Assembly: GCA_011525625.1 (NCBI GenBank)
Contig: WYAX01000017.1
Coordinates: forward strand, 1 to 64,000
DNA length: 64,000 nucleotides
Direction of reading: 5' to 3'
Source of the DNA: Nitrospira defluvii
Lineage (GTDB): Bacteria > Nitrospirota > Nitrospiria > Nitrospirales > Nitrospiraceae
In this document: positions 2,270-60,285 of the stretch, one piece after another
Layout: every line of letters starts with the position of its first letter
Numbering within the stretch: the first letter of the stretch is position 1
The notes under the pieces: generated by a model
Seen by the model: only the letters and a program-made list of their open reading frames with translations
Told to the model about the DNA's origin: nothing
Databases searched by the model: none
Position numbers and translations under genes: made by a program

Positions 2270-4798
2270 TCACACTTCGATTTCTACCTGCGTTTCAATC
2301 TGGGTTTCAACAATGGAATAGATATCGACGTTCTCATCGGGCACATCGATGCTTACGATAAGGCTGAAACGAACAGAATTTTGCCAGCGATCTAACGCAG
2401 TCCGATATTTCCACCATCCACCCACCGGGTAAACTGCAATTGTGTGCATATCGGCAAGCGAAGCAGCCGATCCCGTCCACGTATCCGAATGAAGAGAGCC
2501 TCGGGTGCGTAATTGGAACCCGAGCTTCCAGCCTTCATTGTCACCTTCCGGGCCACTGTAGTCTTCCGTCTCCTCGTTTGCCCTTTGGTTGATAAAGGCT
2601 CTGAAATTGGCCAACGTTTGCCCCGGCCGAATAACTTCAAAGCGTAATCCATGCGATTGGTAGCTATACCGCTTCCTGTATCCCCTTCGCCCCGGGTTGG
2701 GTTCGATGAAATAGGACAAAGTTACCCTGAGCTTGACCTCCAACTCTGGAGGAAGCTGCTGGAGCACCTCGATGGGCCAAGGCAACTGATAGAGCTGCAT
2801 TTCGTGCAACTTTGGATCTTCTGAAGTCCTGGCGTCAGGCTCTTTGAAGAACGGTTGCAACTCATCTTGTGCAATTAGCGTTAATGCATGACTTGCACTG
2901 TAACGGGCACGCTCGAGATCCGGTACACCATGCCCTACTGTCCTTAACATTGTCTCTTTCGCCAATTTCGGACTGTGTTGATCATATAGCAGTCCGAATC
3001 TCTCGGACATACGGGTAGTCCACTCTGCCGAATGCACAATCAGAGCACGAATTGTCTCTGGCCAATAATCTGGGTACTCAGCCATCAGGATCGCTGCCTG
3101 TCGAGAAACCAAAGCACAAGCGGCACTCGTGTCCCCATTGGTTTCAAAAAGTTGTCCGGCTGTTTTTCCAGAGGTTGTTAGAAGAGAAACTACATCGGCA
3201 TCGGTAACTTCAGTACTATCTGGAGAGAGAAGACGATTACCTCCTTCCTCGACAACATCAGGCTTATAAGGAGCATGTTTTCTCCAGCCCCAACTGACAG
3301 CCGAACGTGAAGACGGCGCAACGTCGCCGAACTCTGCAAGAGGTGACCAACCATCGAAGTCGGCATCATCGTTCGTCGTTCTTTCCGTAAATGCCCCCAC
3401 AGTCAGAGCATTCCATGACTGTGCGGGATCTTCTATTTGTGCCAAATTCACTTGATCCCAGTAGTCTGGCTGGGGTGCAACATTGGCATTATTGCCTGCA
3501 GAGATAACAAACAATCTCGATTCAGCATCATCCAGTGCGAAAGAAAAATCATCGATCTCGGCAGACCAGGAAGAGGGTTGCCCTCCCAACGCCTCAGGTT
3601 CAGAGGTGATTGCCAGAGAGTAAACACGCTTCCAGTCTGGCCTATCAATAGCAAGTTTCTCCGCTGTACCAACGGTAATGGCACCATAAAGCTCAGGATC
3701 GTTGTTGCCTGTTGGAGGAAGAATGCGGGCAGACTCGATTCGATGATCCACTGCAATTGGATCGTGACTCATTAAGGCCTCATGCAAGTCACCAAAGACC
3801 GCTAAACCTGCTTGCTTCGAACCATGGTCGTTATAGGGTGCGAAAGGGTTTGTCGGATCGTGGTTATCATATCTAGGCCATGCAGGATCCCATCGTTCCG
3901 CACTTTCCTCGTTGCAGAAATTCCCGATCAATGGGTGATTGTAGTTGACCCCAGTATCAAGGATAGTAATGGCCGTGGAGATGTCAGCATTGAGTTGCAC
4001 GCGTCCATTAAGATCTTCTGTCCATTGCTGTTGTTCTTTCGGGGAAGACCTGAGCAAGACATTGGGCGTCTCCTTCGCCCGCCTAAGCTCTTCGAGATTT
4101 GCGATCAATTCCGGCGCGCGTGAAAGTTGTCTGGATGATGCTCTAATCAAGACAACCAAACTATCGAAGAACGTTATGGATGTATTTCCCAGCTTCGCAT
4201 TGATTCGCTCAGCGAGTTGATGGGGAATATGAAGTGGATCCTCTGCATTAGGCTGTTTCTTCAGCCAGAGCTCCCACCAGACGACCTGGTCTTCATCCTG
4301 TGGAAAGAGACCACTCACATCAGTCCAGAACGACTGCAGATCAGCTAGTTTTATTTCGGCAATGCTATCAATGAGATTGTGATTTCTCGGGCCACCTTTA
4401 CCATCTTTATCAGGATCAAGGTACTGATCGAGTTTGCTCTGGAAAACACCACGCCGAGACTCTGGCACAAATACGACGGCGACTTCATGGTCATCCACCT
4501 TACGACAAGAACGAAGTTTAAAGTCCTTAGAGGTATCAAGACTGTCAAGCGGTAGCTCACAGTCAGGCATTCCGACAATTTCTACATAGATACCGACATC
4601 TTCAGTAATTGGGGGTGGAGCTTGAGCTCGCCGGGCATCATAACTTTGCATAACACCGGCATATTGCCCGGATATGGATTGACCATGCTGATGCCGGTCT
4701 TGTAGTGGAATGACTGGGTTTCGACCCCGCCTTCGTGAACTAAAGTCCTCGCGGTCAGCGAAGCCTTCGATGAGGATATGCGGCTTCCGTTCCGGCAT
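2270..4798 (-). CDS. ietS: Subtilisin-like serine protease, IetS-type anti-phage protein
   Basis: An 842-residue S8 peptidase. The catalytic triad is visible: Asp281 in ILDTGVNYNHP, His325 in NDHGSKQAG and Ser558 in GDTSAACAL, with an oxyanion Asn in ISAGNNANV near 436. No signal peptide is seen, so it should act in the cytoplasm. The N-terminal 260 residues look like the extra domain found in proteases paired with an AAA ATPase; the C-terminal 250 residues resemble a beta-rich tail. It lies 6 bases downstream of the AAA ATPase gene. The pair matches IetAS, described first as a plasmid toxin-antitoxin/stability unit and later as an antiviral system, with the protease as effector. Target proteins are unknown. 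Confidence 0.85.
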   Translation of the reverse strand: MPERKPHILIEGFADREDFSSRRRGRNPVIPLQDRHQHGQSISGQYAGVMQSYDARRAQAPPPITEDVGIYVEIVGMPDCELPLDSLDTSKDFKLRSCRKVDDHEVAVVFVPESRRGVFQSKLDQYLDPDKDGKGGPRNHNLIDSIAEIKLADLQSFWTDVSGLFPQDEDQVVWWELWLKKQPNAEDPLHIPHQLAERINAKLGNTSITFFDSLVVLIRASSRQLSRAPELIANLEELRRAKETPNVLLRSSPKEQQQWTEDLNGRVQLNADISTAITILDTGVNYNHPLIGNFCNEESAERWDPAWPRYDNHDPTNPFAPYNDHGSKQAGLAVFGDLHEALMSHDPIAVDHRIESARILPPTGNNDPELYGAITVGTAEKLAIDRPDWKRVYSLAITSEPEALGGQPSSWSAEIDDFSFALDDAESRLFVISAGNNANVAPQPDYWDQVNLAQIEDPAQSWNALTVGAFTERTTNDDADFDGWSPLAEFGDVAPSSRSAVSWGWRKHAPYKPDVVEEGGNRLLSPDSTEVTDADVVSLLTTSGKTAGQLFETNGDTSAACALVSRQAAILMAEYPDYWPETIRALIVHSAEWTTRMSERFGLLYDQHSPKLAKETMLRTVGHGVPDLERARYSASHALTLIAQDELQPFFKEPDARTSEDPKLHEMQLYQLPWPIEVLQQLPPELEVKLRVTLSYFIEPNPGRRGYRKRYSYQSHGLRFEVIRPGQTLANFRAFINQRANEETEDYSGPEGDNEGWKLGFQLRTRGSLHSDTWTGSAASLADMHTIAVYPVGGWWKYRTALDRWQNSVRFSLIVSIDVPDENVDIYSIVETQIETQVEIEV

Positions 4799-4804
4799 TT
4801 CGTA

Positions 4805-5788
4805 TTACTTTTTCCCTGTTTGGCGACGTTCAATTGCCCTAATCAGCAATGAAGAGGTAATTATTTCTTTATGGCTCAATACCGCTTCTTTTGCGGCATC
4901 TTCACAGGCCCTGGTTATCTCAGCCGAACTGAGATTCTTTGCCGTTGTACTTATCTCGCTCCATTCCAATTGGTCTGTATCGAACATTGACAGTCGATTT
5001 TCGACGAGCTGCTTTATCTGTTCTTGACCAGGCTTCTCGAAGCATATGATGTCATCAAAACGACGATAGAGCGCTTTGTCCAGTAGCTCAGAATGATTTG
5101 TGGCTGCAACGATGATGCTTTCCGAGGCATCTTGTTCGACAAATAGGAGAAAAGAATTCAGTACTCGCCTGATTTCTCCCACGTCATTCTGTGCGCCCCG
5201 TTGTGTACCAATCGCATCAAATTCATCAAACAGATAAACGGCCCTTGTCTGCTTGATATGATCGAAAATTAAACGGAGTTTTGACGCCGTTTCTCCCATG
5301 AAACGAGTAATCAAACTGTCTAGTACCACTGTATAGAGTGGTAACTTGAGCTCAGTGGCTAGAGCTGCAGCTGACATGGTCTTCCCTGTGCCAGGCGGGC
5401 CTGTGAATAACAACTTACGGCGAGGAAGAAGACCAAACTGAGACAATTTATCCTTTTGCCGCTGTTCGAGTAGGACTTGCTCCAAGCGAGTGCTGATGTC
5501 CACCGACAGAACCAGTTCGTTTTTGCGAACGGAAGCCGGAGTCAAATCCAATAAGCCTTTCAGTTCTCCTGCTGGCTGTTTCTTCAGCGGAGTCGGGCTT
5601 TGTACCGCGACACCTAGCTTTGAGGTCTTTTGAGAGCTCTCTACTAGGGCCTTTAGCTCATTAGCGAGTTTGTGGTGGCCTTGGCGAGCTTCTTTTGCGG
5701 CAACTTGCAACGCAATAGAGTAGAACCGCTGATCATCTCGATCCGCGTGGCTCTTCAAAAGCGCCTTGATTTGTTCTGCTGTCGCCAT
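4805..5788 (-). CDS. ietA: AAA-family ATPase, IetA-type anti-phage protein
   Basis: A 327-residue single AAA+ module. Walker A GPPGTGKT lies at about 130-137, Walker B YLFDEFDAI at 185-193, sensor 1 in VAATNHSELL, and an arginine pair in LYRRFDD is a probable trans-acting finger. The first 80 residues are helical and probably bind the partner. It is the first gene of a two-gene operon with the subtilase. In IetAS pairs the ATPase is thought to restrain or activate the protease; whether it unfolds substrates or senses phage is not established. The ATG at 5788 follows a 337-base gap to the divergent XRE gene. Confidence 0.85.
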   Translation of the reverse strand: MATAEQIKALLKSHADRDDQRFYSIALQVAAKEARQGHHKLANELKALVESSQKTSKLGVAVQSPTPLKKQPAGELKGLLDLTPASVRKNELVLSVDISTRLEQVLLEQRQKDKLSQFGLLPRRKLLFTGPPGTGKTMSAAALATELKLPLYTVVLDSLITRFMGETASKLRLIFDHIKQTRAVYLFDEFDAIGTQRGAQNDVGEIRRVLNSFLLFVEQDASESIIVAATNHSELLDKALYRRFDDIICFEKPGQEQIKQLVENRLSMFDTDQLEWSEISTTAKNLSSAEITRACEDAAKEAVLSHKEIITSSLLIRAIERRQTGKK

Positions 5789-11146: not shown

Positions 11147-12172
11147 TCATGGTGGATAGGAGATCCAGTTGATGTCGAACAAGAACCACTGACCACGCCG
11201 CTGACAGCACTGATAGGGGCGCCAGAGATTCCAGACATAGTCACCCTCCTCGTCGACCCGTCCGCCGCCCCACCCGGTAAGACTCGCCAGATCGTTCGTG
11301 CCGAATGCTTCACAACTCGTCTCGGTACGCGGGATCAGCATTTGCCAAATGCCCGAGCGAGGATCGTTCTCCCTGAGGGGGCCAGGTGACCAGACTCTGA
11401 GCCCGGATGACGACGGCGTAATGGGAACGTAGAGGTGTGGTTGTGCCGTACGAGTTACGATATCTCCCGCTCGCTGGGCGTTTATGGCGGCCGCCTTGGG
11501 CTCTTCCGATTGGGTGGTCCACCCGGTACGGGGATGTACACCACCCCAGGTCTGTAGTGGCCAGGCGCCTATCTCGCGCAGTCCCGGGATGAAACTCGCG
11601 GGATAAAAGATCTCGGGGACTTCCTGACGCCACGCCAACGCATCGAGCCCGGATTGGAAGTACGGGACCAGGGAGGTAGTTTCAGACGGACACAACATTC
11701 CTGCACCGGCAACAATCCCAGAGAGCGAACTGAGTGGGTGGCCGATGGCATCCGACTCGCGGAAAACCAGGTTCTTGTGGTCGCGGTGACGGGAACTTCC
11801 CTCTGTGCGATTGCCAGCACTGTTGATGGGTACGGGCAGCAAAGACCCCAACAAGCCATTGGCGGCTGTCTGTTGGGCCAGGCCCAGTGTGGCTCGAATC
11901 TCTACCCAGGGATTGGCGCCCAGTTCGTTATAGCTGCTGATCACGAGATCCGGGTTGTAGTGACCGACCTTGAGGGAGGTTCTGACGCGACAACCCCTCC
12001 AGGAACAGCGCAACCAGAAACAGGCACCAACGGGCATCCAGCGCATACAGGTCAATGCGGCCGCGGTGGTATTGGAGACGATCTCCGCAGTTGTGATGGA
12101 ACCCGCCCGACCGGCGAGTGGCGTGATCAACAGGACTGCCAAACTGACCGACAAAAACCTCCGCCCGCTCAC
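11147..12172 (-). CDS. Integrating conjugative element protein, PFL_4710 family (TIGR03756)
   Basis: 341 residues with an N-terminal signal (FLSVSLAVLLITPLAGRAGS) and a following hydrophobic, Cys-containing stretch (TCMRWMPVGACFWLRCSW). Further cysteines near the C terminus (CEAFG, YQCCQRRGQWFLF) suggest disulfides in the periplasm. This is the TraU-like protein of type G systems, needed for pilus assembly or DNA transfer. It lies 17 bases after PFL_4709 and 20 before PFL_4711. Nothing is missing compared with the usual length. Confidence 0.85.
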   Translation of the reverse strand: MSGRRFLSVSLAVLLITPLAGRAGSITTAEIVSNTTAAALTCMRWMPVGACFWLRCSWRGCRVRTSLKVGHYNPDLVISSYNELGANPWVEIRATLGLAQQTAANGLLGSLLPVPINSAGNRTEGSSRHRDHKNLVFRESDAIGHPLSSLSGIVAGAGMLCPSETTSLVPYFQSGLDALAWRQEVPEIFYPASFIPGLREIGAWPLQTWGGVHPRTGWTTQSEEPKAAAINAQRAGDIVTRTAQPHLYVPITPSSSGLRVWSPGPLRENDPRSGIWQMLIPRTETSCEAFGTNDLASLTGWGGGRVDEEGDYVWNLWRPYQCCQRRGQWFLFDINWISYPP

Positions 12173-12189: not shown

Positions 12190-12669
12190 TCACTGCTGGT
12201 AGCGATGCAGTGCTTCGCGGAGATGGGTCACACCGTAGATCGCCAGTTTCCCGTCGAACACGATGGCCGGATAGCGATCGACGCCATACTGCACCGCCTT
12301 CGCCAATCCCACGGCACTATGCTGTAGATCTACGCGCTCCGACGTCGGTAGCTGCTGGATACGCTGAAGGACGATGCGTTTGGAGTTTTCTGGGTCGTTT
12401 GGAAGATCGCGGGACAGGTTTGTCTGGATACGCTTTATGCCATCCACCCGATAGACTTGAAGCTCTGTTCCTGGAGGCAGTCCTAGACGGGCCGCGGCAG
12501 GCACCGTCACCTCCTTCGGGCCCACCGTAAATACTTCGATCCGATTCGGACCCGTGATGGGTGCCGCACCCACACGGATGAGCGCAAGGCTCAGACACAA
12601 CGACAGCAAGACCAACTGTACAAACCGGTGGCGGTCGATGCGATGAGCAAAGGGCAGAATCGAAGACAT
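12190..12669 (-). CDS. Integrating conjugative element protein, PFL_4709 family (TIGR03757)
   Basis: 159 residues with a signal sequence (VQLVLLSLCLSLALIRVGAA). The C-terminal YPAIVFDGKLAIYGVTHLREAL resembles the thioredoxin-like fold of TrbC/TraW-type proteins but lacks a CxxC pair. In F-like systems the equivalent protein acts with TraU in the periplasm. This is the first transfer gene after cargo block 2; the gene upstream in other elements (traC) is 5.5 kb away here, so it must have its own promoter, presumably in 12670-12814. Confidence 0.8.
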   Translation of the reverse strand: MSSILPFAHRIDRHRFVQLVLLSLCLSLALIRVGAAPITGPNRIEVFTVGPKEVTVPAAARLGLPPGTELQVYRVDGIKRIQTNLSRDLPNDPENSKRIVLQRIQQLPTSERVDLQHSAVGLAKAVQYGVDRYPAIVFDGKLAIYGVTHLREALHRYQQ

Positions 12670-12814
12670 GGCCGTAAGCCTGCACCAGGCTGGAAAGTCC
12701 TTCGATGGGAAACCAAGTCAACCCCTGTCGGGATTTCGGCCGTTAGCGGCTCATTGACTTGACTGAACTCACGGCAGATGCTTTGGCATATGTCTCCGAT
12801 TGGAGAGTACTCGA

Positions 12815-13057
12815 ATGACCGCCCCTGAACGGCGTGCGCGCCTATTCCGTAACGGGCGAAACCAGGCGCTACGCATCCCCCGCGAATTTGAACTGAAAGG
12901 CGAAGAAGCAGTTATCCGCAAGGAAGGTGATCGACTGATCGTGGAGCCGATCCGTAAGAGCAGGCTGCTGGCTCTGCTGGCTTCCCTGGAACCGCTAGAC
13001 GTGCCCTTCCCCAATGTGGACAAAGATCTACCCCCGCTGGATGACGTAGCCTTGTGA
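12815..13057 (+). CDS. vapB: AbrB/MazE-fold antitoxin, VapB type
   Basis: 80 residues from the ATG at 12815. The swapped-hairpin AbrB domain is at about 4-45 (RLFRNGRNQALRIPREFELKGEEAVIRKEGDRLIVEP split by loops), followed by a short toxin-binding tail ending PLDDVAL. The stop overlaps the GTG start of the vapC frame as GTGA. Because vapC is broken, this antitoxin may persist as a free repressor or anti-addiction factor. Divergent to the PFL_4709 gene. Confidence 0.85.
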   Translation: MTAPERRARLFRNGRNQALRIPREFELKGEEAVIRKEGDRLIVEPIRKSRLLALLASLEPLDVPFPNVDKDLPPLDDVAL

Positions 13058-13467
13058 GCACGTCAATGGCGTATCTGCTAGATACCAACATCCTCTCCAA
13101 TCTGGTTCGCGATCCATAGGGTGCGGTGGCGGGCTGAATTGAGAAGGAAGGTGAGGACGGTGTCTGCACCAGTATCGTGGTCACGGCGGGACTCCGCTAT
13201 GGCGCCACCAAATCGGGTTCGGACAAACTTGCAGACCGGGTTGATATGCTGCTCTCCGCGCTGGAGATCCTGCCACTGGAAGCACCGACCGACCGTCACT
13301 ACGCACAACTACGCCATCACCTGGCACTCCGGGGAACGCCCATCGGGCCGAACGATTTACTCATTGCTGCCCATGCCCTCGCTGCAGACCTGAAACTCGT
13401 GACCGCCAACGTCGGGGAGTTCTCCCGGGTGCCGGGTCTGAAAGTGGAGAACTGGTTACAGGAATAG
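13054..13467 (+). pseudogene. vapC: vapC PIN-domain toxin, inactivated by two in-frame stops
   Basis: In the frame starting GTG at 13054 (or ATG at 13066) the protein reads MAYLLDTNILSNLVRDP, then TAG (13117-13119), GAVAG, then TGA (13135-13137), and continues as a full PIN domain (EDGVCTSIVVTAGLRYGATKSGS, PIGPNDLLIAAHALA, LVTANVGEFSRV) to 13467. Both stops are one-base changes from codons expected in VapC (Gln and Arg). The acidic residues Asp6, and those of PNDLLIAAHA, are otherwise intact. A truncated second part from 13177 is unlikely to be active because it lacks the first Asp. Confidence 0.85.
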
Positions 13468-13601
13468 CGCGTGAGTTTGGGAAAAGGGGATTCATTTTCT
13501 GGATTTGTTTTTCGTAAGATCACTACGAAAACAAATCTTTCCCGTTTTCTTGCATACTAGTACTACGAACTAAGGGCACAAACGCAGGCTTAAATCTCTG
13601 T

Positions 13602-13907
13602 TTAGATTAGCCCTTTACTTCTCCAAACGAGCGGGCGGCATGTACTGTAAGTTCTTTGGGGTATCTCTGAAAGTACCTCAACCGCTCTCAAGATAATCCA
13701 GAGACCCAATAAAAAGAGACCAACGCTGGCAATGATCCAACTCACCAGGTGGGCGCGACCAAAACTCTCGTAGGCATTGAATTCATCCTGGATGATCCAG
13801 GAGAAGACAAAGATGTCTTCGCGCATGATCATCAATTTAACGATCACCAACGATATATAGATACTCAACAGTGCCCAGAACCAGTTTTCAATCAGATACG
13901 ATATCAA
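13602..13907 (-). CDS. Small membrane protein of unknown function
   Basis: 101 residues. Two clear membrane helices: 5-28 (LIENWFWALLSIYISLVIVKLMI) and 54-76 (LVSWIIASVGLFLLGLWIILRAV), joined by a short polar loop (DEFNAYESFGRAHL) and followed by a basic tail. The family is not recognised. It faces away from the conserved gene at 13973, with 65 bases between them. The AT-rich composition differs from the transfer genes, fitting acquired cargo. Could be a small immunity-like or stress membrane protein; there is nothing to decide. Confidence 0.5.
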   Translation of the reverse strand: MISYLIENWFWALLSIYISLVIVKLMIMREDIFVFSWIIQDEFNAYESFGRAHLVSWIIASVGLFLLGLWIILRAVEVLSEIPQRTYSTCRPLVWRSKGLI

Positions 13908-13972
13908 AATTGCTTTTCCCTTTCATAATGCGTAATAAGCGAATATTTGCACTTCCAATCTGAACCTTGGCC

Positions 13973-14614
13973 ATGTCCAGACAAAACCGAGTAGATCCAT
14001 TCGGGGAACTAATCATAACTCCCGCTCGCGGCCACTGGATGGGCAATCGGGGGTGTCTCCATGACCGAGAGGGACGGTTGACCGGAAAACAATGGTCGCG
14101 CAAACCCTGGATAACGTGCCTCCTAGAGTTCAAAGAAAGGCGGCGGACGATCATGACGCCGGGACAATACACTGAACTATTCTTCCTGGACGAAGTGACC
14201 GCGTTCGCGGCTGGTCACAGGCCCTGTGCTGAGTGCAGGCGTGATGCCTACAACCGGTTCAAGAAAAGTTGGCTCGCGGCCAACGCCGACCGGATCGATG
14301 GTTCCAGCATCAAACTGATTGATGATTATCTTCACGATGAACGAATTGACCCGCTAACAAAATTACGCCGTACCTGCTCAGGGCCACTCTCCGATTTACC
14401 CAACGGGACTTTTGTCCAACTTCCGAATTCAGGTGTCGCCTGGTTGTTGTTTAATGGACGTCTCTGGCGTTGGAGTGCTGAGGGATATTATGACTCACGT
14501 CCCTCAACGAAGATTAGCGAAGTACAGATTCTCACACCGCCCTCCATCTGCAGAGCGTTTCAATTCGGCTACCGTCCACAAGTACACCATTCAGCAAATG
14601 TGGCGGTCCAGTAA
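13973..14614 (+). CDS. Conserved hypothetical protein with HRPCAECRR motif
   Basis: 213 residues from the ATG at 13973. I recognise a widespread but unnamed family of proteobacterial proteins sharing NRVDPFGE, TPARGHWMGNRGCLHD, FLDEVTAFAAGHRPCAECRRDAYNRF (in parts), LPNGTFV and TPPSICRAFQFGYRP. The Cys pair in RPCAECRR recalls the metal-binding Cys of Ada-type N-terminal domains and may bind zinc. No secretion signal or membrane segment. It is usually a lone chromosomal gene, so its presence here is as a passenger. Function unknown; a nucleic-acid or repair role is only suggested by the Cys motif. Confidence 0.75.
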   Translation: MSRQNRVDPFGELIITPARGHWMGNRGCLHDREGRLTGKQWSRKPWITCLLEFKERRRTIMTPGQYTELFFLDEVTAFAAGHRPCAECRRDAYNRFKKSWLAANADRIDGSSIKLIDDYLHDERIDPLTKLRRTCSGPLSDLPNGTFVQLPNSGVAWLLFNGRLWRWSAEGYYDSRPSTKISEVQILTPPSICRAFQFGYRPQVHHSANVAVQ

Positions 14615-14818
14615 CTGTTCGCTTCTGCACAAACTCGACATTTTGTTTGGGTATATTTCTAACGGTACCATCAGCTTCGTAGAATCCAACCGGCGGTTAA
14701 CCTGAAACCCTATAATTTACTCCTACAATGGGATCCGAATCCTATTGTACTTTTCTTAGTACGTTAATCGCGAGGTCGTACAATCACACTTGCAACAATT
14801 CCGCGAAGCGAAACCAAC

Positions 14819-16033
14819 CTACTTGACATAGTCTCCCGCCCAGATTGTGTTAACCGTAGTGCTGTACTCCTTCTGAACCTCTCTGACATAGTTTTCCAGT
14901 TCAGGAGAAGCATCCGCAATAACCATGAGATACTGAATGCTCTTCTCTCGACGAATACCTTCGAGATGGGACTGCGCGTTGATGGCTGGCCTCAGCTCGT
15001 GATGCAGTTTATGAATGTCGTCATTTAGGAGCCTGATCTTATCTTCGATACTTCCCCCGTTAAAGCTCTTGCTTCCCTTAATTTCGATGACGGCTTCCAG
15101 ACTCTCGAGTTTTTCGAAGTCATTCTGCCTCTTTTGATCTCTATTGACTCCTAAATGAAATCGCCCATCGAAGTCTTTATCGAATACAGCCATATCAGGT
15201 AACCAATATGCTGCTCTCGAACCGGGTTTTTTCGCAAAATGAAAGAATACCTCACTCGCACACTGAGTTTCGCGCAAACCTGAACTTCTCAGGCAGTGGT
15301 ACAAGTTCCCTTGTGCGAAGGTTTCATCTTTGGGTTCAACGGTGGCTACTTCGGTGAAATAGGCTCGCCAATCAAAATTGTTGAAGTCAAAATTGGGGGT
15401 TTCTCTGATGTCAATCTTCGACTCATTGGAAACATCATATATTTCATCTCCACCTGTGCTGAACCAGCGTGCGTTATCACGGTATTCCGGTGTTCCGTAG
15501 ACGAACCCGATCGATTGTTCTTTCGCCATGGCGGAATAGTGCTCAATGTCACAATTCTCGAAACCTCTTCGCATGTAAGCGGGTTCAATGCATACTTGGA
15601 TTGCTCTGTGTATATAATCATTCCTCAGGCGATTAAACGTGTGCAGTTTATCTAAGTCTTTCAGAATTCCACCCGTCTTGTTCGCACCATGTTTTCCGTC
15701 GACTTCCTTTGCTTTTTTCAATGAATTGCGATAACTGTTCGCACCTGCCTTGAGTTCAATTGCATACTTTTCATTACCTACCGTTAAAACGAAATCCAAC
15801 GACCCCGTCTTTCCGTTATGCAGTTTGATCTTAACTTCACGATCGACCCGGCCGATCTCCGGATGCTGAAGTGCGTTGTTATACAGCATGCACTGATAGA
15901 GACCTTCTGATCCACAGATAGCGCGTGCTTCTGCGATCGTATCATTGATGACCTGCCTGATAGCCCGGTTGATTTCCATTATTCTATCCTTCATCCGTCT
16001 GATTGCTGGTGTGCTTTGCAGGTATTGCAGCAA
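14819..16033 (-). CDS. Putative nuclease with two PD-(D/E)XK-like repeats
   Basis: 404 residues. Two segments share the same plan. Repeat 1: LYQCMLYNNAL, a Glu at 66, GSLDFVL with Asp80, and YAIELKAG with Glu93 and Lys95. Repeat 2: LYHCLRSSGL, Glu261, LPDMAVF with Asp280, and AVIEIKGS with Glu317 and Lys319. Each has the E ... D ... ExK layout of a PD-(D/E)XK nuclease, so this looks like an internal duplication with two potentially active sites. Starts at 15994 or 15979 are also possible. It follows the DUF4258-like gene by 44 bases on the same strand, as the last gene of a three-gene operon. Family name unknown; restriction-like defence or DNA repair are the main possibilities. Confidence 0.7.
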   Translation of the reverse strand: MLQYLQSTPAIRRMKDRIMEINRAIRQVINDTIAEARAICGSEGLYQCMLYNNALQHPEIGRVDREVKIKLHNGKTGSLDFVLTVGNEKYAIELKAGANSYRNSLKKAKEVDGKHGANKTGGILKDLDKLHTFNRLRNDYIHRAIQVCIEPAYMRRGFENCDIEHYSAMAKEQSIGFVYGTPEYRDNARWFSTGGDEIYDVSNESKIDIRETPNFDFNNFDWRAYFTEVATVEPKDETFAQGNLYHCLRSSGLRETQCASEVFFHFAKKPGSRAAYWLPDMAVFDKDFDGRFHLGVNRDQKRQNDFEKLESLEAVIEIKGSKSFNGGSIEDKIRLLNDDIHKLHHELRPAINAQSHLEGIRREKSIQYLMVIADASPELENYVREVQKEYSTTVNTIWAGDYVK

Positions 16034-16077
16034 TTCAATATGGCTGCAAATTGAACTAGCAGCCCCATGAACACACG

Positions 16078-16371
16078 CTAATCTGCAGCGAGCAGTTTTT
16101 TCACTCGCCGTTTATCCGCCCAGTATGCGGTAATAATCACACCGCAATCGTCCACCACAACGGCATCGGTGAGTCGTTCGATCCGCTTGACTCTTTCCCG
16201 CAGCGACTTCAAGCAGGCACGCTGTGCACTCTTCGTCAGCATGTATCCGTCTGAAAAGGGCTCGCCATAGCGCAGAACGAGTTCGATGTCAGTCTTGTTA
16301 ATGGCACGCTGTCCCATTCGAACCTGGGCGTGTTCTGTCAGCCGATAGCTGCCTATCCTTTCTGCACTCAT
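16078..16371 (-). CDS. DUF4258-like small protein
   Basis: 97 residues with the pattern LTEHAQVRMGQRAINKTDIE, GEPFSDGYML, then VVVDDCGVIITAYW near the end. This matches the DUF4258 style of small proteins, which have been grouped with RelE/BrnT-like RNase folds; the conserved His in TEHA and the Arg residues would be the active-site candidates. Its start ATG overlaps the stop of the 509-residue gene by four bases (ATGA), so the two are translationally coupled. It may be a toxin or RNase subunit of the operon, but there is no direct proof of activity. Confidence 0.65.
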   Translation of the reverse strand: MSAERIGSYRLTEHAQVRMGQRAINKTDIELVLRYGEPFSDGYMLTKSAQRACLKSLRERVKRIERLTDAVVVDDCGVIITAYWADKRRVKKLLAAD

Positions 16372-17897
16372 GCGATTGTCTCCTCTTCCATGGTCATGAA
16401 AGCCGACTCGGCTGCTTCAAGTTCCTCTCCAATGCTCCACAGTGGACATTGATCAAGAGCGGTAGCTGTACTCCCCCAGTCTCGTTCGAGACTTCCGTCC
16501 TTGATGACTCGCATCAGGTACTTTCGCAACGAGTCGCACTGGTAGGGAAACTCGCGAGGGCGATCCTTTGCGAATACCGTCGCGTTTCCCCAAAGGCTGA
16601 GATGTGCTATGTCCAACGGAACCAGATTGGTGCCTTCGTCGTTGCCGATCTTCGCCAGTACTATCACTTCGTTTTCATCCGGGGAGGGATAGAGAAACAG
16701 CGCAAGATGGTCCGCTGCCAAAAATGCGCCATTACCTACGCTCATCAACTTTTCCGTGTCGGGTAGGAGTTCGGCGGAGAACAGTTTCAACTCCACCGGA
16801 TCGAATTCCTCCACACTACGGACCATCCGCTCGGAATGGTAAAGGTCGAATGCCTGTTGACCGGGATCGCTCCAGCTCGGCGCCTCTACGTTTAAAAAGC
16901 CGGCATAGTGGATCGGAAGCGATTCCAGCGCGTCCCCTATCCAGGACAAAACCAGGGTTTTTCCTGATAGATTGGCGATTCCCTGATCCATCGGATCCGT
17001 ATCACTGAAATAGGTATTCCTCGCAAGGCGCCGCCGTTGTGGTTGTTCTATAAAGATGTCTCGCAGGGTTACTGCCAATTCAGTGAGTTCGCTATCTTCC
17101 CCGGCGACACGTGCTAACTCCTGTAGGGTCGCGCTGCTCTGTTTTTCAGTAAGTTGTAGAAGCGCAGGGATGTTCAGTGCTCGGTACTGCTGCAGCGCAT
17201 CGGCCACAACCACATTGGGTTTCGGGGTGTAATACCCTTCTTCAAAGCTATATTCATCGTCCGGCCAGACGCACTCGCCCCCTAACCTCAGGTGCTGCTC
17301 GCGGACACTGGCGAGTTGACGGAACTTTTCGCGCAGTCCGTGTTTCCTGCCTACACGATTGGCGACGAGCCTGAGCTGCTGGTGAATTCGAAAGCACCAT
17401 TCCGGGATCCCCTCCACCGTTTCATCGATCTTCACACCAACGGTGAGTTCGCGAACGAGATCCAGCAGATTTTCCCCCGGTAGATTGCTGACGGCCTCTA
17501 CAATAGCGAGGTAATACTTATAATCCTTCAGTTGACGCGTACCCGGTTTGGAGAGCGCTGTTATAGCCTTGCTAAAAGCGTTCATGTCTTCCCAGAGCTG
17601 GCCTAGAAGACCATCTTGGCCGGCCCTGTAGATGTCCCGGGTCCGAACGCCGGAGGTTTTTAACCGTGCACGTATTGTGGCTACGTTGTCAGCCCACTGG
17701 GAGGCGCTGGCGTTAGGGATCTTCCCTTTTGCACCGGGAGACTCACTGCCCATGCGCAGTAGATGCAGCAGGCGTTCCGCACTTTCATTGATCTGCTTTT
17801 CCGCCTCTCGAGGCGTTAAGGACTTGTTCCCTGGTTTCCTTTTATCGCGTGGCATAACTGACGGTCGATCGAAGAAATATGCCCCCATGATAGACAT
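16368..17897 (-). CDS. Unknown 509-residue protein, first gene of the nuclease operon
   Basis: Not recognised. Mostly helical for residues 1-290, with a basic N terminus (MPRDKRKPGNKSLTPREAEKQ from the internal ATG at 17855, a plausible real start), then a mixed alpha/beta C-terminal half with TLVLSWIGDALESLPIHYAG and a hydrophobic strand ENEVIVLAKIG. No ATPase, nuclease or membrane signature could be found. The gene is AT-richer than the transfer genes. Coupled by ATGA overlap to the DUF4258-like gene, it probably works with it; a neutraliser, sensor or scaffold is possible, but no function can be assigned. Confidence 0.6.
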   Translation of the reverse strand: MSIMGAYFFDRPSVMPRDKRKPGNKSLTPREAEKQINESAERLLHLLRMGSESPGAKGKIPNASASQWADNVATIRARLKTSGVRTRDIYRAGQDGLLGQLWEDMNAFSKAITALSKPGTRQLKDYKYYLAIVEAVSNLPGENLLDLVRELTVGVKIDETVEGIPEWCFRIHQQLRLVANRVGRKHGLREKFRQLASVREQHLRLGGECVWPDDEYSFEEGYYTPKPNVVVADALQQYRALNIPALLQLTEKQSSATLQELARVAGEDSELTELAVTLRDIFIEQPQRRRLARNTYFSDTDPMDQGIANLSGKTLVLSWIGDALESLPIHYAGFLNVEAPSWSDPGQQAFDLYHSERMVRSVEEFDPVELKLFSAELLPDTEKLMSVGNGAFLAADHLALFLYPSPDENEVIVLAKIGNDEGTNLVPLDIAHLSLWGNATVFAKDRPREFPYQCDSLRKYLMRVIKDGSLERDWGSTATALDQCPLWSIGEELEAAESAFMTMEEETIA

Positions 17898-18241
17898 ATC
17901 CCGTGAATATAAAACCGGTATTCCGTTTTTATTGTAATTATTTTCCGTATTTTTATATGTTGTTTACCGGTTTTTGAATTTATTGGTAATCTCTCTACCC
18001 AGTAATCCCTCAGCAAATCTGGCTTGATACCAGATGTGGACGCCATTGTTATTCACTCGCGGCTCCGAGAGATGCTCGAAGGACATATGCCTGGCCTTGC
18101 ACTCACCGGTTACAACCTTCCATTGGCGCGGGACGCCGCGTCACGACCATGCTCTGGGGCTCACCGGATTCTCTACCGCGTCGCAAAGTTGGAGGGGATC
18201 GGTTTGCATCCCCGACAGACGGTGGATACGTGGCCGGGTCT
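17898..18241. other. Intergenic region between traC and cargo block 2
   Basis: The left part to about 18000 is AT-rich and should contain the promoter of the minus-strand 509-residue gene. Bases 18010-18241 return to the GC-rich style of the ICE. Short frames there have no recognisable product; this may be the eroded end of an ICE gene that normally follows traC. Confidence 0.4.
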
Positions 18242-20983
18242 CTAGGGAGTACGGCTCAGACCAATGCGGTGCGCGATGAAATAAGCAGCCTCGAGTTCAC
18301 TGCAGTCTCGCTCGTGCATGATGGCGGCGCGCTCTGCCTTTTCGTGCTTCTCGGTCATGGCGAGTGCCAGGGAAAGTGGTGGTGGGACGTTGCGGAATAG
18401 CGCTTCCAGATTGTCGGAGAGAACGACGCCCTCGACGTATTTACCGGGTTCTTTTCGCGCGGATAGCAGTAAGTTTCGCTGCACGTCGGTCAGGTCCTTG
18501 AAGCGCGCGATCTGTTCGACCTCTTCCTTGGGCATGACCAGGCAGAGCCACCACTCCATCATATTGAGCATTTTTTTGCTCGCATCGGGGAAGTCCTCCA
18601 GGTTCTGGGTGGCGATCCAGAACCAGGCACCGAGCTTGCGCCACATCTTGGTGATCTTGACCACGTAGCGGGCCAATAGGGGATTGGTGGTGATGATGTG
18701 ACCTTCGTCGGTCACTACCAGGGTAGGTCTGGCATCGTTCTGGTGGCGCTCCACCAGGTCGTTGATGTGGCTCATCATGGAGATGTAGGCGACGGTGAGC
18801 TGATCTTCGTAGCCCTCACGGGCCAGGATACCCATCTCCAGGACGGTGACATCGGCCTCGGGCCAGCGGGTGCCGGAACGGTTGAAGAAGTGACCGGCCA
18901 GACCGGAGCAGAACAGCGCCATGCCGTCTGCCATCTCGATGGCGCGGTTGCGACGGTGTTCGGGCAGGGATTGATCGTTGCCAATGGTCTGCAGGGCGGC
19001 GACCACGTCTTCGGTGATCACCTGTTCTCGGTGCGTTTCCTTGACGGTCTTGGCCGCCAGCAGTATGGCGTTGCGAATGACCAGGCGGTCGGCCCGGCTC
19101 AAGCGGGCGTCCTCGCGCTCGTCTCCGCCGGTGATCATGATCCGCGCGGCGATCTCCATCTCGCCCAGGATGTCCCGGCCGCTGCCCTCCTCGTCTCCTT
19201 CGTCGTCATCGTTGAGTTCATCCGGATCCTTGGCGAGTCGGGTTCGATGCTCTTTCTCCAATACGCGGAGGGCATCGGCAAAGGGCGGCAGGCTGACGTC
19301 CACGTTGGGGTTCAGGGTGACCTGATTGACCGACACGCCGTGCGCCTGAAATTGTTGTCCCAGGAGCGAGAATGAACCTCCAGCCTCGATGATGAAGATG
19401 CGCGGGCGGTGAACCGCCATCATCTGTTGCAGGAGATAGACCAGGAGTGCCGACTTGCCGGCCCCGGTGGGTCCGAGGATCAGCATGTGGGCGTTTTTCT
19501 TGCGGTCGGACCGGTGCAGCGGATCGAAGGCCAGGGGTTCGGCACCGCGGTTGAAGAACACCATTCCCGGGTGACCGGTACCTCGGGAGCGTCCGTAGAG
19601 GGGTAACAGGTTGGCGGTGTGACGCGAGAAGACCAGGCGGGAGCGGCGACTGGTCTTGTCCAGTGCTACGTCGTAGGCCATGGGCAGGTTGCGGAGATAC
19701 CCGTCCAATGCCAGGAGATCCGCCTCCTGCAGGATCGGTTGCAGGCCGTTGGGTAACAGCAGGGCGTTTAACTGGTTGACGTTGGTGCGTAGCGTTTTGG
19801 GATCGTCGCCGCGTACGTAGAAGGCGATGTTCAGCGGGTAGAGCTTGTTACCCTGGGCCATCTCGCGCTCCACCTGTTCCGCCTCTTCCCGGGTGAGTTC
19901 GGCCTCGGCGGTGTCGCCTACCGAGGCGCGTTTGATCTGGGCGATGTGGTTGCGGGTGTAATCCTGCGGCTTCACCGTCAGGGTGAGCGCCATGACGGTG
20001 TGCTCGGGCAGGCGGTCGAAGAGCGAGAAGACGTGATCGCCGGCCTGACGCTCGGCGGTCATATGGCCGATGTCCGGGGCCCGTCGGAGCCCCTGAACGG
20101 TCACCACGGTGTGCGGCAGGCCGTCGAACCACCAGGTGGCGGAGGTGTTGTCGGACCGGGGCATGGCGAGGGTGAGGCACTCGGCCAGGTCGTAGCCGAA
20201 GGGCAGCGCCGTGTCGCCCGGATAGGGGGCGATCTCCAGCAGCTGGTCGGGATCGCCGCCGGCGAGGGCCGGTCTGGGGTTGAACCACTTGAGGAGCCAC
20301 TCATAGAGATCCCGGCCGGTGCCGCGTTTGGCTTTTATGCCGGCCGAGGCCAGCGCGGCGATCCACTTGATCGCCACATCGTTCAGCGACTCCTCGACCT
20401 CGACGGCGGATGGGGGCCTGCCCTTGGGTTTCAAGCGGCGGTAGAGGGTGGCGCGGATGCGGCGCACCTGGCCGCGCCATCGGCTGCCGGTGACGGCGGT
20501 GTCCTCGAAGAGTCCTCCGGGACGGGTGATCTGATTGAGGTGCTGGGCAAAGGTCTCCCGGTAGTGACGGGTGAATGCGGTGTCTTGGGCACTGGGGTGG
20601 GCGTATTCGGCGACCTGGTGCTGGAAGGCTTTGAGGCTCGGCTCATCCTGCACGTAGACCTGCAGGACCCAGGGGGCGTCGTCCTCTTCGGGGATGGCGT
20701 CGGTGAGCGCGGTCTGGATGGCGTCACGCAGCTGCTGCATGAACTGCGGCGTCCGCGCCTCGGTCCCCGCTGGGGTGATTTCAAACAGCGCGCCCACGCT
20801 GATGCCGTCTTCGAGCAGGAAGGTGCGACTGTCGGGATGGTACTCGACCCAGGGGAGGAGATCGGTGAAAGATGGCGGGCGCTCGTAGAGGCGTTTGACC
20901 TCGGCTGTGGTGACCGGTGCGTCTTCCGAGTCAGGCACCTTCTGCTTAGGATGGTGTTGCGGGATCCCCGCCATGTTTATCAC
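18242..20983 (-). CDS. traC: Conjugative transfer ATPase TraC/VirB4, PFL_4706 family (TIGR03744)
   Basis: 913 residues, full length for the family. Walker A ILGPTGAGKSALLVYLL lies near 500 and Walker B TLVVTDEGHIITT near 770; an acidic insert (DDDEGDEEGSGRD) separates them. This is the cytoplasmic motor that powers pilus biogenesis and substrate transfer at the inner membrane. The GTG at 20983 overlaps the lipoprotein stop by one base; an ATG at 20974 (MAGIPQHHPK) is an alternative start. Downstream, where PFL_4709 would soon follow in PFGI-1, the operon is broken by cargo block 2. Confidence 0.95.
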   Translation of the reverse strand: MINMAGIPQHHPKQKVPDSEDAPVTTAEVKRLYERPPSFTDLLPWVEYHPDSRTFLLEDGISVGALFEITPAGTEARTPQFMQQLRDAIQTALTDAIPEEDDAPWVLQVYVQDEPSLKAFQHQVAEYAHPSAQDTAFTRHYRETFAQHLNQITRPGGLFEDTAVTGSRWRGQVRRIRATLYRRLKPKGRPPSAVEVEESLNDVAIKWIAALASAGIKAKRGTGRDLYEWLLKWFNPRPALAGGDPDQLLEIAPYPGDTALPFGYDLAECLTLAMPRSDNTSATWWFDGLPHTVVTVQGLRRAPDIGHMTAERQAGDHVFSLFDRLPEHTVMALTLTVKPQDYTRNHIAQIKRASVGDTAEAELTREEAEQVEREMAQGNKLYPLNIAFYVRGDDPKTLRTNVNQLNALLLPNGLQPILQEADLLALDGYLRNLPMAYDVALDKTSRRSRLVFSRHTANLLPLYGRSRGTGHPGMVFFNRGAEPLAFDPLHRSDRKKNAHMLILGPTGAGKSALLVYLLQQMMAVHRPRIFIIEAGGSFSLLGQQFQAHGVSVNQVTLNPNVDVSLPPFADALRVLEKEHRTRLAKDPDELNDDDEGDEEGSGRDILGEMEIAARIMITGGDEREDARLSRADRLVIRNAILLAAKTVKETHREQVITEDVVAALQTIGNDQSLPEHRRNRAIEMADGMALFCSGLAGHFFNRSGTRWPEADVTVLEMGILAREGYEDQLTVAYISMMSHINDLVERHQNDARPTLVVTDEGHIITTNPLLARYVVKITKMWRKLGAWFWIATQNLEDFPDASKKMLNMMEWWLCLVMPKEEVEQIARFKDLTDVQRNLLLSARKEPGKYVEGVVLSDNLEALFRNVPPPLSLALAMTEKHEKAERAAIMHERDCSELEAAYFIAHRIGLSRTP

Positions 20984-25699: not shown

Positions 25700-27502
25700 T
25701 TACGTACCCCCTCGCTTCCTAGCCGTTTTGTGTTTTTTACCCATGTACTTCGATGCTTGGTTGACTTCCCAAGTCTCGAGTGTCGTCGGCAGTGGATTAC
25801 GGGTGGCAAGACGCACCACTCGGACTAGTGCCTTGATAATCGGACGATTCTCTACTTTGCGCCGGGAATCGTTGGACAGCATATATTCGACCATGATCTC
25901 ATTCAGCTTAACTTTCGGCAGATCGTAGTTGGCCTTTTGCCGATACAGCCGTACAAGAGCAGCACTCGCATTGGTAGCCTTCTTACAGCCATTCACCTCG
26001 TTTCGTGAAAAACGTGCCCGGCCTTGCGCCAGTTCGTTCATTGCCGCTGCAATCTCCTCACATGAATAATTGTCGAATTCGAAGGAATCCTTCCAAATTC
26101 GGATATATTCCCCCCGCGTCACATACCGCCGGTCACTATGTTTGGACTTTGCCTTTCGCGCCTCGTCCTTGAGTCTTTTCGAGTAGTTTTCGTTGTCGAG
26201 AATGAGATATGTGATGGTCTGATGATGATGTAAGTAGTCAACCAGTCGCAGGATGGCTCGAAACCGGTCGTCCTTCTTGGTGCCGGTCGCGGTACCTACG
26301 CCGCCTAATACTAGGATCTCGATCCCGCAAGTACCCGGATGTACCCCAAAGTATCGCCAAAAGATCTTTCGAACTGCGGCGTCTTCGCTTTCACCTTCCA
26401 CAATGAGCGCAAGCTTGGGCTGGGGATTCACTCCGAATCGGTTGGCAACAAATTCAAGGAAGCGGCGAGTGTCCTGGCGAACTTCCAACTCGGGGATAGG
26501 ACGAATGACCTGTCTCGTTACTTCGTTCGGGTGGGGTAGTTCCTCCTCATAGAGGTCTTTGTACAGAAGCCGCAGCATGTGAGCCCCTGCGCGTAATGTT
26601 TCAGCACGCAGTGCCTCACCTTTCAGCTTCTTCCGCTCCTCGATCGACACGAATTGGATGAGTTGATACCAGTTTTCCAGTGGATCGCATGAGGCCTGCT
26701 CTATTGCCAATGTCTCGAAGGCATATTGCAGTTTCCTGGGTGTCAGCTCAAACCGTCGTTCCACCGCATGGGGTTCCCAATCTTGAACATATTCTCGCCA
26801 ATCCCAGCGGAACCCATCGACACTGATCCATTGATCCGCGAAATGTCCTCCACCTACTTGTATCGTCCGTCGATCTCCCCGTGTTAAAGGGTAATAGCGG
26901 TTGGATATGAGCTGGCATAGCAGCGCCACGCTACGCCGGTATCCGTGTACTCGCAGGCTTTTCAGGCGACTGTCCGCATACTGCATCCAACTCTCGCCAC
27001 TCTTCTGCCAATCGATGCACTGATCGTCATGTCGATCCAAATAGGTGTCCAACTGGATCGGTAACGTCATCTCTAACAGCACGAGATGAAGGTAATCAAT
27101 CTGAAATATGGAGTAATACCCCTCTTGCGTCCTATCGTGGGGGCTCGGAACGTCATAGTGTGGAGCAAGACCGGTGGTATCCCATGCCCAATTTTTTGTG
27201 AACCAATTGTTCCCCTTGCGCACCGGGATGAAAAAGGGCGGCGACTCTTCATTGGGTGTGCATACTCGAAACACCGGGGCGAACAGCCCCAGACGTTCAA
27301 GTCGTATCAGTCGTTCCCGGTCGATCGACAGACCGCGTTCGCAACAATACGAAACAAATCGGTCCGTCCCCAGTAGGGGACAAGCAATAACAGCTGCGGC
27401 TTCGACGATGGCGCGCCCGGCATTCGCTGGAAGAGTGAGCAGTTTGTCGTCAACGGCGGCTTTCTCTTTCATCCCAGGTTTTACCGATCTCCCTGACTTC
27501 AA
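25700..27502 (-). CDS. TOPRIM-domain protein coupled to hipA
   Basis: 600 residues. A large N-terminal region (1-360) of unknown type is followed by a TOPRIM-like fold: LALIVEGESEDAAVRKIF with Glu369, then TYLILDNENYSK with Asp436, and a long C-terminal helical part ending in a basic tail. This is the layout of OLD/RNase M5-type TOPRIM nucleases without an ATPase domain. The TTG start at 27502 overlaps the hipA stop as TTGA; an ATG at 27472 is the alternative. It therefore belongs to the hipBA operon, which is unusual. It may be a nuclease effector or a third toxin component. Not recognised as a described family. Confidence 0.7.
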   Translation of the reverse strand: MKSGRSVKPGMKEKAAVDDKLLTLPANAGRAIVEAAAVIACPLLGTDRFVSYCCERGLSIDRERLIRLERLGLFAPVFRVCTPNEESPPFFIPVRKGNNWFTKNWAWDTTGLAPHYDVPSPHDRTQEGYYSIFQIDYLHLVLLEMTLPIQLDTYLDRHDDQCIDWQKSGESWMQYADSRLKSLRVHGYRRSVALLCQLISNRYYPLTRGDRRTIQVGGGHFADQWISVDGFRWDWREYVQDWEPHAVERRFELTPRKLQYAFETLAIEQASCDPLENWYQLIQFVSIEERKKLKGEALRAETLRAGAHMLRLLYKDLYEEELPHPNEVTRQVIRPIPELEVRQDTRRFLEFVANRFGVNPQPKLALIVEGESEDAAVRKIFWRYFGVHPGTCGIEILVLGGVGTATGTKKDDRFRAILRLVDYLHHHQTITYLILDNENYSKRLKDEARKAKSKHSDRRYVTRGEYIRIWKDSFEFDNYSCEEIAAAMNELAQGRARFSRNEVNGCKKATNASAALVRLYRQKANYDLPKVKLNEIMVEYMLSNDSRRKVENRPIIKALVRVVRLATRNPLPTTLETWEVNQASKYMGKKHKTARKRGGT

Positions 27503-28755
27503 TGAATGGAAAGCGCTGCCAGCAAATCCTTGTGCTCAAAGGCCGAGGCCATGCGATCGGTCTCGGCCTGCGTAAGGCCGAGGCGCGTCGCCTCTTCGCG
27601 CCAAGCGGCTACGGCCTGACCGACCTCGGAGGCGATCACTCGTGCCTTCCCTTCATCGAGTTCGAAATACCTCACCACGCTCATCGCCAGATCCAGCGAC
27701 GCCGAGCCATCATCGAGATCGATGGCCGTGGTCAAGACGCGTGGCTTGATGTCCGTGGGGACCGGATTGAGGTCATAGGCCGGGGCGAGGCGCCAGCCAT
27801 CCGGACCGCTATAGAGAAAGGCGTGATTACGCAAATGATCATCCGTGTTGGAGATTAGGATATTGAAGACGATGCGCCGCCACAGCGCCTCCATGTCCTG
27901 TTTCGGGCTGGCACCATAGCGGCGCAGGGCATCGACAAATTCCAGATAGCTGCGTGATTCGTTGTCGCTAGCTCCGAGCATGCTCATGGCCGAGAGAAAC
28001 GGAATACGCTGACCCTGCACCCGATCAAAACGACGCAGCAGCAATACCGGTTTGTTCACTACGCGCTCCGTTCGCCAGTCGGACACGGGAATACCGGCCT
28101 TGGCCGCCAGCGCTAGCGCGACCGCCTCCCACAACACGGCATTGATCTCATCGTCTTTGTGCGTGAATTTGGCGATGGCGAGTTGCCCATCTCGATCCCG
28201 AACCGAGGCCTTGGGACGCGCGCCACCCAATGATGAGCCCGGAGCCAGAAGCAGGCGCAGGTCTTCGTCACTGTCCGTGTCACCCACGACATGCTCCACG
28301 GCCGCCAACAATCGGGGCAGATCGATCAGCGGTGGTATGCGCGTCGCGTCATGCTCGGCGAGAAACGGTCCGTCCTCTTGCTTGGCAAAACGCAGCGCGC
28401 CTTGCCTGGCTTCGTCATCGACCCTAAGCAGGTAATCGATCTCCATCAACGTACGCGGCGTCTCGCCAGCGCGTTCCGCGCGCCGGCGCTCGGCACGACG
28501 CATCAGTACACGTCCCCAGCGGTCAGGAGCGGAATCGCCGATGGCGCCGAATAGGGGTTTACCGGAAGGCGTGTGAAAGGGACCTGGACCGAGCGTCAAT
28601 GCCGGTTCCAGGGAGAAACGGTCGGCATACTCGAGCCAGTGAGGATCATACTCGAAGCTGGCACTTTCCCTACCCTTGCGTATGCGTGCCCAGAGTCGCC
28701 CAGCCAAACGCGAGGTGCCGGCGATATCCACGTAGACCAGCACTTCGGTTTCCAT
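27499..28755 (-). CDS. hipA: HipA-family serine/threonine kinase toxin
   Basis: 418 residues, normal length. N-terminal Couple_HipA-type domain (about 10-110) and C-terminal HipA kinase domain, with GARPKASVRD, LLLRRFDRV, ILISNTDDHLRNHAFLYS (catalytic Asp) and LAPAYDLNPVP (metal-binding Asp). HipA phosphorylates translation factors such as glutamyl-tRNA synthetase and triggers dormancy; related kinases may have other targets. The start overlaps the hipB stop (TAATG), and the stop overlaps the TOPRIM gene start. Confidence 0.92.
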   Translation of the reverse strand: METEVLVYVDIAGTSRLAGRLWARIRKGRESASFEYDPHWLEYADRFSLEPALTLGPGPFHTPSGKPLFGAIGDSAPDRWGRVLMRRAERRRAERAGETPRTLMEIDYLLRVDDEARQGALRFAKQEDGPFLAEHDATRIPPLIDLPRLLAAVEHVVGDTDSDEDLRLLLAPGSSLGGARPKASVRDRDGQLAIAKFTHKDDEINAVLWEAVALALAAKAGIPVSDWRTERVVNKPVLLLRRFDRVQGQRIPFLSAMSMLGASDNESRSYLEFVDALRRYGASPKQDMEALWRRIVFNILISNTDDHLRNHAFLYSGPDGWRLAPAYDLNPVPTDIKPRVLTTAIDLDDGSASLDLAMSVVRYFELDEGKARVIASEVGQAVAAWREEATRLGLTQAETDRMASAFEHKDLLAALSIH

Positions 28756-29478: not shown

Positions 29479-30090
29479 CTATTGCCTGGCGTCTTTCACA
29501 TACATTGCTGTGTTGTCGTTTCTCATCTCGATCTCGAATAGCTCGCTAACCCTGATCAGCTCGCTGAGCTTCCGGTAGCCAAAGTTGAGCGGCGAGAAGG
29601 AGCTGTTGTTCGAGATGTACTTGACCACTTTACTGAGATGCGACCAACCATCCTCTCCGGATGTCTGCTCCACGGCGGTTCTCAGGAGCCTGACGAGTGC
29701 CGTATCACCTCGAAGTTCATTGCGAGATCGTTTGGCCACCCCTTCGGTATTGCCTACTTCCTCTTCAATCTTGGATTGCAGGTTCTCCGTGTAGATGAAC
29801 TGCGAACACGCGTGGACGAAAGGTAACGGTGTCTTCTTTTCACCGAATCCGTAGACCGGCATCCCATTCTCGAGGATTCGCATGACGAGCGGCGTGAAAT
29901 CACTGTCGCTGGTCATCAGCGCAAAGGCGTCGACATTGCTGCTGTACAGCAGGTCCATCGCATCGATGATCATGGCAGGCCGAACGTTGACGGTTCCGTA
30001 CTTGGCTAACTCTTCAAGCACACCCTCGATCGAGGTGAAACTGACGTTGTCGCAATCAATCAGCAGCGCGATTCTAGTATTTACGCTCAT
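29479..30090 (-). CDS. NYN-domain protein with OST-HTH domain, internally deleted
   Basis: 203 residues. The N terminus is a LabA-type NYN (PIN-like RNase) domain: IALLIDCDNVSF with the first Asp residues, then LEELAKYGTVNVRPA, directly joined to MIIDAMDLLYSSNVDAF, TSDSDFTPLV and VYGFGEKKTP. In relatives about 40 residues, including a YGDW..P..KGW stretch and the KNATD segment, lie between the two. Here they are missing at residues 39-40 without loss of frame. Residues about 128-200 form an OST-HTH/LOTUS-like RNA-binding domain. The full-length family cleaves or binds RNA; the loss probably disables it, or alters it. Flanked by ICE genes. Confidence 0.8.
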   Translation of the reverse strand: MSVNTRIALLIDCDNVSFTSIEGVLEELAKYGTVNVRPAMIIDAMDLLYSSNVDAFALMTSDSDFTPLVMRILENGMPVYGFGEKKTPLPFVHACSQFIYTENLQSKIEEEVGNTEGVAKRSRNELRGDTALVRLLRTAVEQTSGEDGWSHLSKVVKYISNNSSFSPLNFGYRKLSELIRVSELFEIEMRNDNTAMYVKDARQ

Positions 30091-58660: not shown

Positions 58661-58939
58661 ATGAAAACACTTGATCTTGAACAGGCCGCCGATTTTCTGA
58701 AAGTCAGTCCGAGCACGGCTCAGGAGATGGCTGCTTCAGGCAAGCTTCCGGGCGCCAAGATCGGACGAGCTTGGGTGTTTTTGGTGGAAGATCTGGTCGA
58801 GTACCTGAGGGAACAGGTATGCATTCAACGGGAAGTTCGCCGTGAGCAAACCCAGTCAACAGCAATTGCGGTCCTTTTGCCTAAACGCTCCAGGCGCCGC
58901 GAACTACCCGAACTACCAGAGCTGCCCAGCCAAGTCTGA
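58661..58939 (+). CDS. Excisionase-like helix-turn-helix protein
   Basis: 92 residues from the ATG at 58661. The winged helix-turn-helix pattern MKTLDLEQAADFLKVSPSTA, then GKLPGAKIGRAWVFLVEDLVEYL, is that of the MerR/excisionase HTH_17 type. Proteins like this often direct integrases towards excision. The C terminus is Arg-rich with an ELPELPELP repeat and overlaps the integrase tail by 27 bases on the opposite strand. Confidence 0.75.
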   Translation: MKTLDLEQAADFLKVSPSTAQEMAASGKLPGAKIGRAWVFLVEDLVEYLREQVCIQREVRREQTQSTAIAVLLPKRSRRRELPELPELPSQV

Positions 58940-60211: not shown

Positions 60212-60285
60212 TGGAGGCTGGGGTCGGAATCGAACCGGCGTCCACGGCTTTGCAGGCCGCTGCATAACCACTCTGCCACCCAGCC
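60212..60285 (-). tRNA. cysT: tRNA-Cys (GCA)
   Basis: 74 bases including the encoded CCA end. On the minus strand it starts GGCTGGG and ends CCCAGCCTCCA. The anticodon arm reads CCTGCAAAG with anticodon GCA. T arm GGTTCGATTCC is normal. Confidence 0.95.

Follow-up and report, generated by a model that had tools for sequence, protein, structure and literature searches.

A predicted pair of PD-(D/E)XK-like domains in an orphan protein encoded in the TraU-TraC cargo slot of a Nitrospira integrative conjugative element

The TraU-TraC interval carries AT-rich orphan cargo

The window analyzed here, a stretch of 64,000 nucleotides, contains genes for conjugative transfer on both sides of a 5.6-kb cargo block of lower G+C content (positions 12670 to 18241). 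The block is bordered on one side by a gene matching the TIGR03757 profile (12193-12669), next to the gene encoding TraU (11150-12172; PF06834, E = 4e-58), and on the other side by traC (18242-20983; TIGR03744, 1367 bits). The product of the gene considered in this study (14819-15979, minus strand) is an orphan protein in which two PD-(D/E)XK-like domains are predicted. Upstream and on the same strand lies a gene for a DUF4258 protein of 97 residues (16078-16371, minus strand; Pfam PF14076, E = 2.9e-7), which overlaps by 4 bases the gene for a second orphan protein, of 509 residues (16368-17897, minus strand), for which the collections searched contained no relative. No methyltransferase was seen among the open reading frames of the cargo block.

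The remainder of the block includes an open reading frame on the plus strand (13967-14614) that adjoins the candidate nuclease gene in the opposite direction and matches the PADLOC candidate defence family PDC-S40 at 2.5e-81. It also includes a decayed toxin-antitoxin pair, in which a MazE/AbrB-type antitoxin gene (12800-13057) precedes a gene for a VapC-like PIN toxin (13066-13467, plus strand; Pfam PIN) whose reading frame is broken close to the 5' end by two stop codons.

The interval between TraU and TraC corresponds to GI-Hotspot 3 of the PAPI-1 islands of Pseudomonas, which is enriched in type II restriction-modification systems and in PD-lambda-5 (PMC12629846). Genes of the TIGR03757 and TraU side overlap traC directly in two Methylophaga plasmids and in Marinobacter nauticus pMAQU02, and the matching junction in Pseudomonas, Enterobacter, and Klebsiella records holds thioredoxin-domain, RadC, restriction-endonuclease, and toxin genes. 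The orphan gene occupies the same interval of the transfer operon as the cargo of GI-Hotspot 3 but differs from that cargo in matching no PADLOC model (PMC12629846). The gene is AT-rich orphan cargo, and the TraU-TraC slot that it occupies belongs to an integrative conjugative element of the PFGI-1/PAPI type. Among 121 relatives searched, no other genome yielded a traC of this type, and the element therefore looks foreign to this lineage.

Further genes were observed outside the cargo block. A pair encoding a subtilase and an AAA ATPase similar to IetS and IetA (IetAS-like; 2270-5788, minus strand) belongs to the same element. A helicase gene (48-2240, plus strand) matches PADLOC PLD_Helicase from position 186 of the 905 positions of the profile, the first part of which is absent from the match; its open reading frame begins 48 bases into the window. 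The region 25703-28755 (minus strand) encodes a protein of 600 residues with a weak OLD-like TOPRIM match, for which no other family was found; its gene overlaps, over a few bases, one whose product matches the HipA family. Another open reading frame (29482-30090, minus strand) joins an NYN nuclease domain to an OST-HTH/LOTUS domain. A tyrosine recombinase gene (58913-60414, minus strand) is located beside tRNA-Cys and tRNA-Gly genes, and the element probably has its attachment end here.

Two PD-(D/E)XK-like residue sets in one chain

The open reading frame of the orphan gene is intact and specifies 404 residues if read on the minus strand from a TTG codon at position 16033 to position 14819. 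The sequence AAGGA (15987-15991, minus strand), a probable Shine-Dalgarno motif, stands seven bases upstream from an ATG codon at position 15979 (M19). Translation therefore probably starts at M19, giving a protein of 386 residues (14819-15979); the 404-residue numbering is used throughout. The G+C content of the gene is 0.454 vs 0.584 for the whole window.

The first-pass annotation had named LY-x-C, Glu, Asp, and ExK residues in both halves of the protein, and all were present at the positions given in the 404-residue numbering. The N-terminal half contains L45-Y-Q-C48, E66, D80, and E93-L-K95. The C-terminal half contains L244-Y-H-C247, E261, D280, and E317-I-K319, with a literal P279-D280. 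Each half displays the residue order of the PD-(D/E)XK superfamily, with (E/D)-x-K in the predicted strand that follows the one holding the Asp, and a Glu ahead of both. The putative domains extend over residues 43-180 (15494-15907, minus strand) and 241-399 (14837-15313, minus strand).

The frequency of such a signature was estimated with a regular expression requiring an Asp in a hydrophobic stretch followed, 5 to 45 residues later, by two hydrophobic residues and Glu or Asp, a hydrophobic residue, and Lys. The background comprised 347 proteins (117,043 residues) translated from open reading frames in 20 stretches totaling 400 kb of a genome of the same genus. Three of the 347 proteins contained the signature once, and none contained it twice, corresponding to a rate of about 0.026 per 1000 residues. 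The orphan protein contains two signatures, and all other open reading frames of at least 120 residues in the window lack it. Shuffling the residues of the orphan protein generated two signatures in 0.16% of the trials. Since the expression was chosen after the protein had been seen, and was fitted to this case, these figures are indicative and do not amount to a clean P value. They nonetheless support the conclusion, drawn from sequence, that the double occurrence of a PD-(D/E)XK-like site in this protein exceeds chance.

The arrangement of predicted secondary structure following the ExK motif was similar in the two halves. Each contains a predicted helix with the motif D-[LI]-x-K-L-H (residues 126-131 and 339-344), followed by further predicted strands at 144-151 and 175-180 in the N-terminal half and at 365-372 and 392-398 in the C-terminal half, the last strand of each domain being the second listed. 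The distance from the Lys to the next strand is 49 and 46 residues in the N- and C-terminal halves, respectively, and the distance from there to the last strand is 31 and 27 residues. Secondary-structure propensities offered weak support for this order of segments. No nuclease family match was obtained for either half in the Pfam, NCBIfam, PADLOC, and PHROGs profile libraries. A weak match of the C-terminal half to DUF4164 covered the helical stretch following the ExK motif and was discounted as being of the coiled-coil type. Of the earlier proposal of two complete sites in one chain, the double occurrence of the residue sets stands above chance according to the signature statistics, and neither half has a significant match to the profile of a member family of the superfamily. 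Taken together, both halves are probably PD-(D/E)XK-like.

No relative of the protein was recovered. Scans of genome contigs and viral contigs, some of them with pseudo-alignments allowing conservative substitutions at the motifs, detected none, and none was found among PDB sequences. None was accepted in overlapping sets of 198, 270, and 396 whole genomes (relatives, class, and phylum, respectively) or among plasmids and phages (tblastn up to E = 10). Two candidates were discarded: a match in one genome (G159) overlapped a 786-residue open reading frame in another frame and contained a stop codon, and a match in Pseudomonas phage Pori-4 (E = 2) had no D...ExK pattern.

Because no relatives were found, AlphaFold2 was run on the single sequence. 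The full-length and N-terminal-half models had pLDDT values of 34.7 and 34.5, respectively, and were unusable as structures. At this very low confidence (pLDDT of about 35), E66-K95 was modeled in both as three neighboring strands with helices on either side, a placement that would fit the proposed core and proves nothing. A Foldseek search with the model of the N-terminal half (pLDDT of about 35) gave no match at E < 0.001, and there was no restriction-type nuclease among the best 50 matches listed; the dsRBD-like and other short folds present in that list were considered as noise.

Relatedness of the two halves

The two halves had been proposed to result from a tandem duplication. Alignment of one half against the other by the Smith-Waterman algorithm (BLOSUM62, gap penalties 11/1) produced a score reached by 44 of 1000 shuffles (p of about 0.04), a marginal similarity; with very loose gaps (7, 0.3), the score was reached by 2 to 5 shuffles in 1000. 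The residues that aligned best between the halves differed from the catalytic ones, and hhalign, comparing the halves as single sequences, returned a probability of 0.4%. In a segment-wise comparison, suggestive likeness was confined to the region following the ExK motif (RLRNDYIHR vs RLLNDDIHK; p = 0.07 with standard gaps and 0.03 with looser gaps). This match is out of structural register: the two halves have a similar spacing between ExK and the following strand, whereas the matched segments are shifted by about 25 residues.

With little in common between the halves apart from the pattern of motifs, descent by duplication appears weak and is not established, and the sequences do not support a recent duplication. 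Two fold-related domains located side by side would fit as well. Owing to the marginal similarity and to the suggestive segment being out of register, it is safer, at the level of sequence, to speak of a tandem pair of PD-(D/E)XK-like domains.

The same marginal similarity is compatible with a protein in which one half only is a working nuclease, the other half being degenerate or unrelated and serving for DNA binding or dimer formation. Double-strand cutting would then require a dimer, which is how most restriction enzymes work. In the PD-(D/E)XK superfamily, partner domains that are catalytically dead occur commonly, as in XPF-like and EME1-like pairs. Against a single working half, the full set of E, D, and ExK is present in both halves and the double signature is rare; we regard this explanation as somewhat unlikely.

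Other readings of the protein

The protein might also be a toxin or a regulator partnered with, and controlled by, the products of the DUF4258 and 509-residue genes rather than a stand-alone restriction enzyme. The three genes are in line on one strand, the DUF4258 and 509-residue genes overlapping, and the remnants of the PIN-type toxin-antitoxin pair are close by. The candidate nuclease gene is nevertheless set apart from the pair by a gap of 98 bases to the DUF4258 gene and by its lower G+C content (0.45 vs about 0.53), and a partnership of this kind is unlikely.

A third reading stems from a match of residues 79-153 to Pfam PF18730 (HEPN_Cthe2314), with E-values of 3e-5 for the whole protein and 9.5e-6 for the N-terminal half alone. 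According to this reading, the N-terminal half would be, or would contain, a HEPN-type RNase, and the protein would be a toxin directed at RNA that carries a fused PD-(D/E)XK domain. The R-x4-6-H motif of HEPN domains is present as RNDYIH (R-x4-H; residues 137-142; 15608-15625, minus strand). HEPN domains joined to restriction-endonuclease-fold domains have been documented, and the HEPN_Cthe2314 family has an active HEPN motif with no fusions described (PMC3710099). The score of 24 to 26 bits (at most 26.2) is nonetheless below the curated cut-off of 27.1, the match is partial (profile positions 61-129 of 174), and masking the six residues of RNDYIH abolished it; deletion of the D80-K95 stretch lowered it to about 15 to 17 bits. 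HEPN domains are all-helical, whereas the matched stretch begins in strand-like segments (LDFVLTV and YAIELKA). A comparable RLLNDDIHK occurs in the C-terminal half, and the motif may simply sit in a helix following the ExK strand. Because the match is partial and its starting segment reads as beta strands, the HEPN reading is kept as a rival of rather small likelihood.

Finally, it is very unlikely that both ExK segments are fortuitous and that the protein is no nuclease: this would agree with the empty searches of family libraries, the lack of a confident structure, and a motif pattern chosen post hoc, but the signature is rare in the background and the order of the segments fits both halves.

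Discussion

The reading that we retain is that of a nuclease whose single chain holds two PD-(D/E)XK-like catalytic domains one after the other and whose gene is cargo of the TraU-TraC slot; we give it an even chance of being correct. Taken separately, catalytic activity of both sites is slightly favored over its contrary, and DNA as the target is favored to the same slight extent. That one chain makes a double-strand break is possible but doubtful. The most far-reaching proposal, a new family of defence enzyme that acts alone and breaks both strands as a monomer by means of two diverged PD-(D/E)XK sites, with no companion methyltransferase, is improbable as a whole.

In the proposed mechanism, each domain would bind a divalent metal through its Asp and Glu (D80 and E93; D280 and E317) and would use its Lys (K95; K319) for hydrolysis of one phosphodiester bond, such that one chain could nick both strands of foreign DNA. 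The role most likely to be served by this activity would be defence of the host or of the element against phages or competing elements. This suggestion is based on the slot collecting defence genes, on the PDC-S40 neighbor, and on the IetAS and PLD_Helicase matches in the same element. The protein could be a restriction enzyme that spares self DNA, through modification dependence or by other means, or a toxic effector restrained by a further factor.

What the protein has in common with members of the PD-(D/E)XK superfamily is that E, D, and ExK follow one another, twice, in segments that resemble strands; the protein differs from them in that no family profile matches either half and its fold is a putative one. 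In the type IIS/IIT restriction enzymes Mva1269I, BsrI, BtsCI, and AciI, a single chain contains two distinct catalytic domains, and a monomer can cut both strands (PMC4081073). The orphan protein may resemble enzymes of the Mva1269I and BsrI type in having the residue sets twice in one chain, a likeness of layout, sequence comparison having been made with family libraries only. In contrast to these enzymes, it has no methyltransferase in the cargo block and no identified recognition domain.

Two catalytic domains in one restriction-enzyme chain are an established principle, which limits the surprise; the unusual features here are the lack of relatives in the collections searched and a cargo block with no methyltransferase gene. 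The earlier observation is a reasonable one and is borne out in part, as is its interpretation. We consider the orphan protein as a candidate of moderate interest and not as a surprise. If both sites are active, it would be a compact, unstudied double-strand cutter acting without a neighboring methyltransferase and residing in a slot for defence genes, and hence a candidate for a new nuclease directed against phages or acting between elements.
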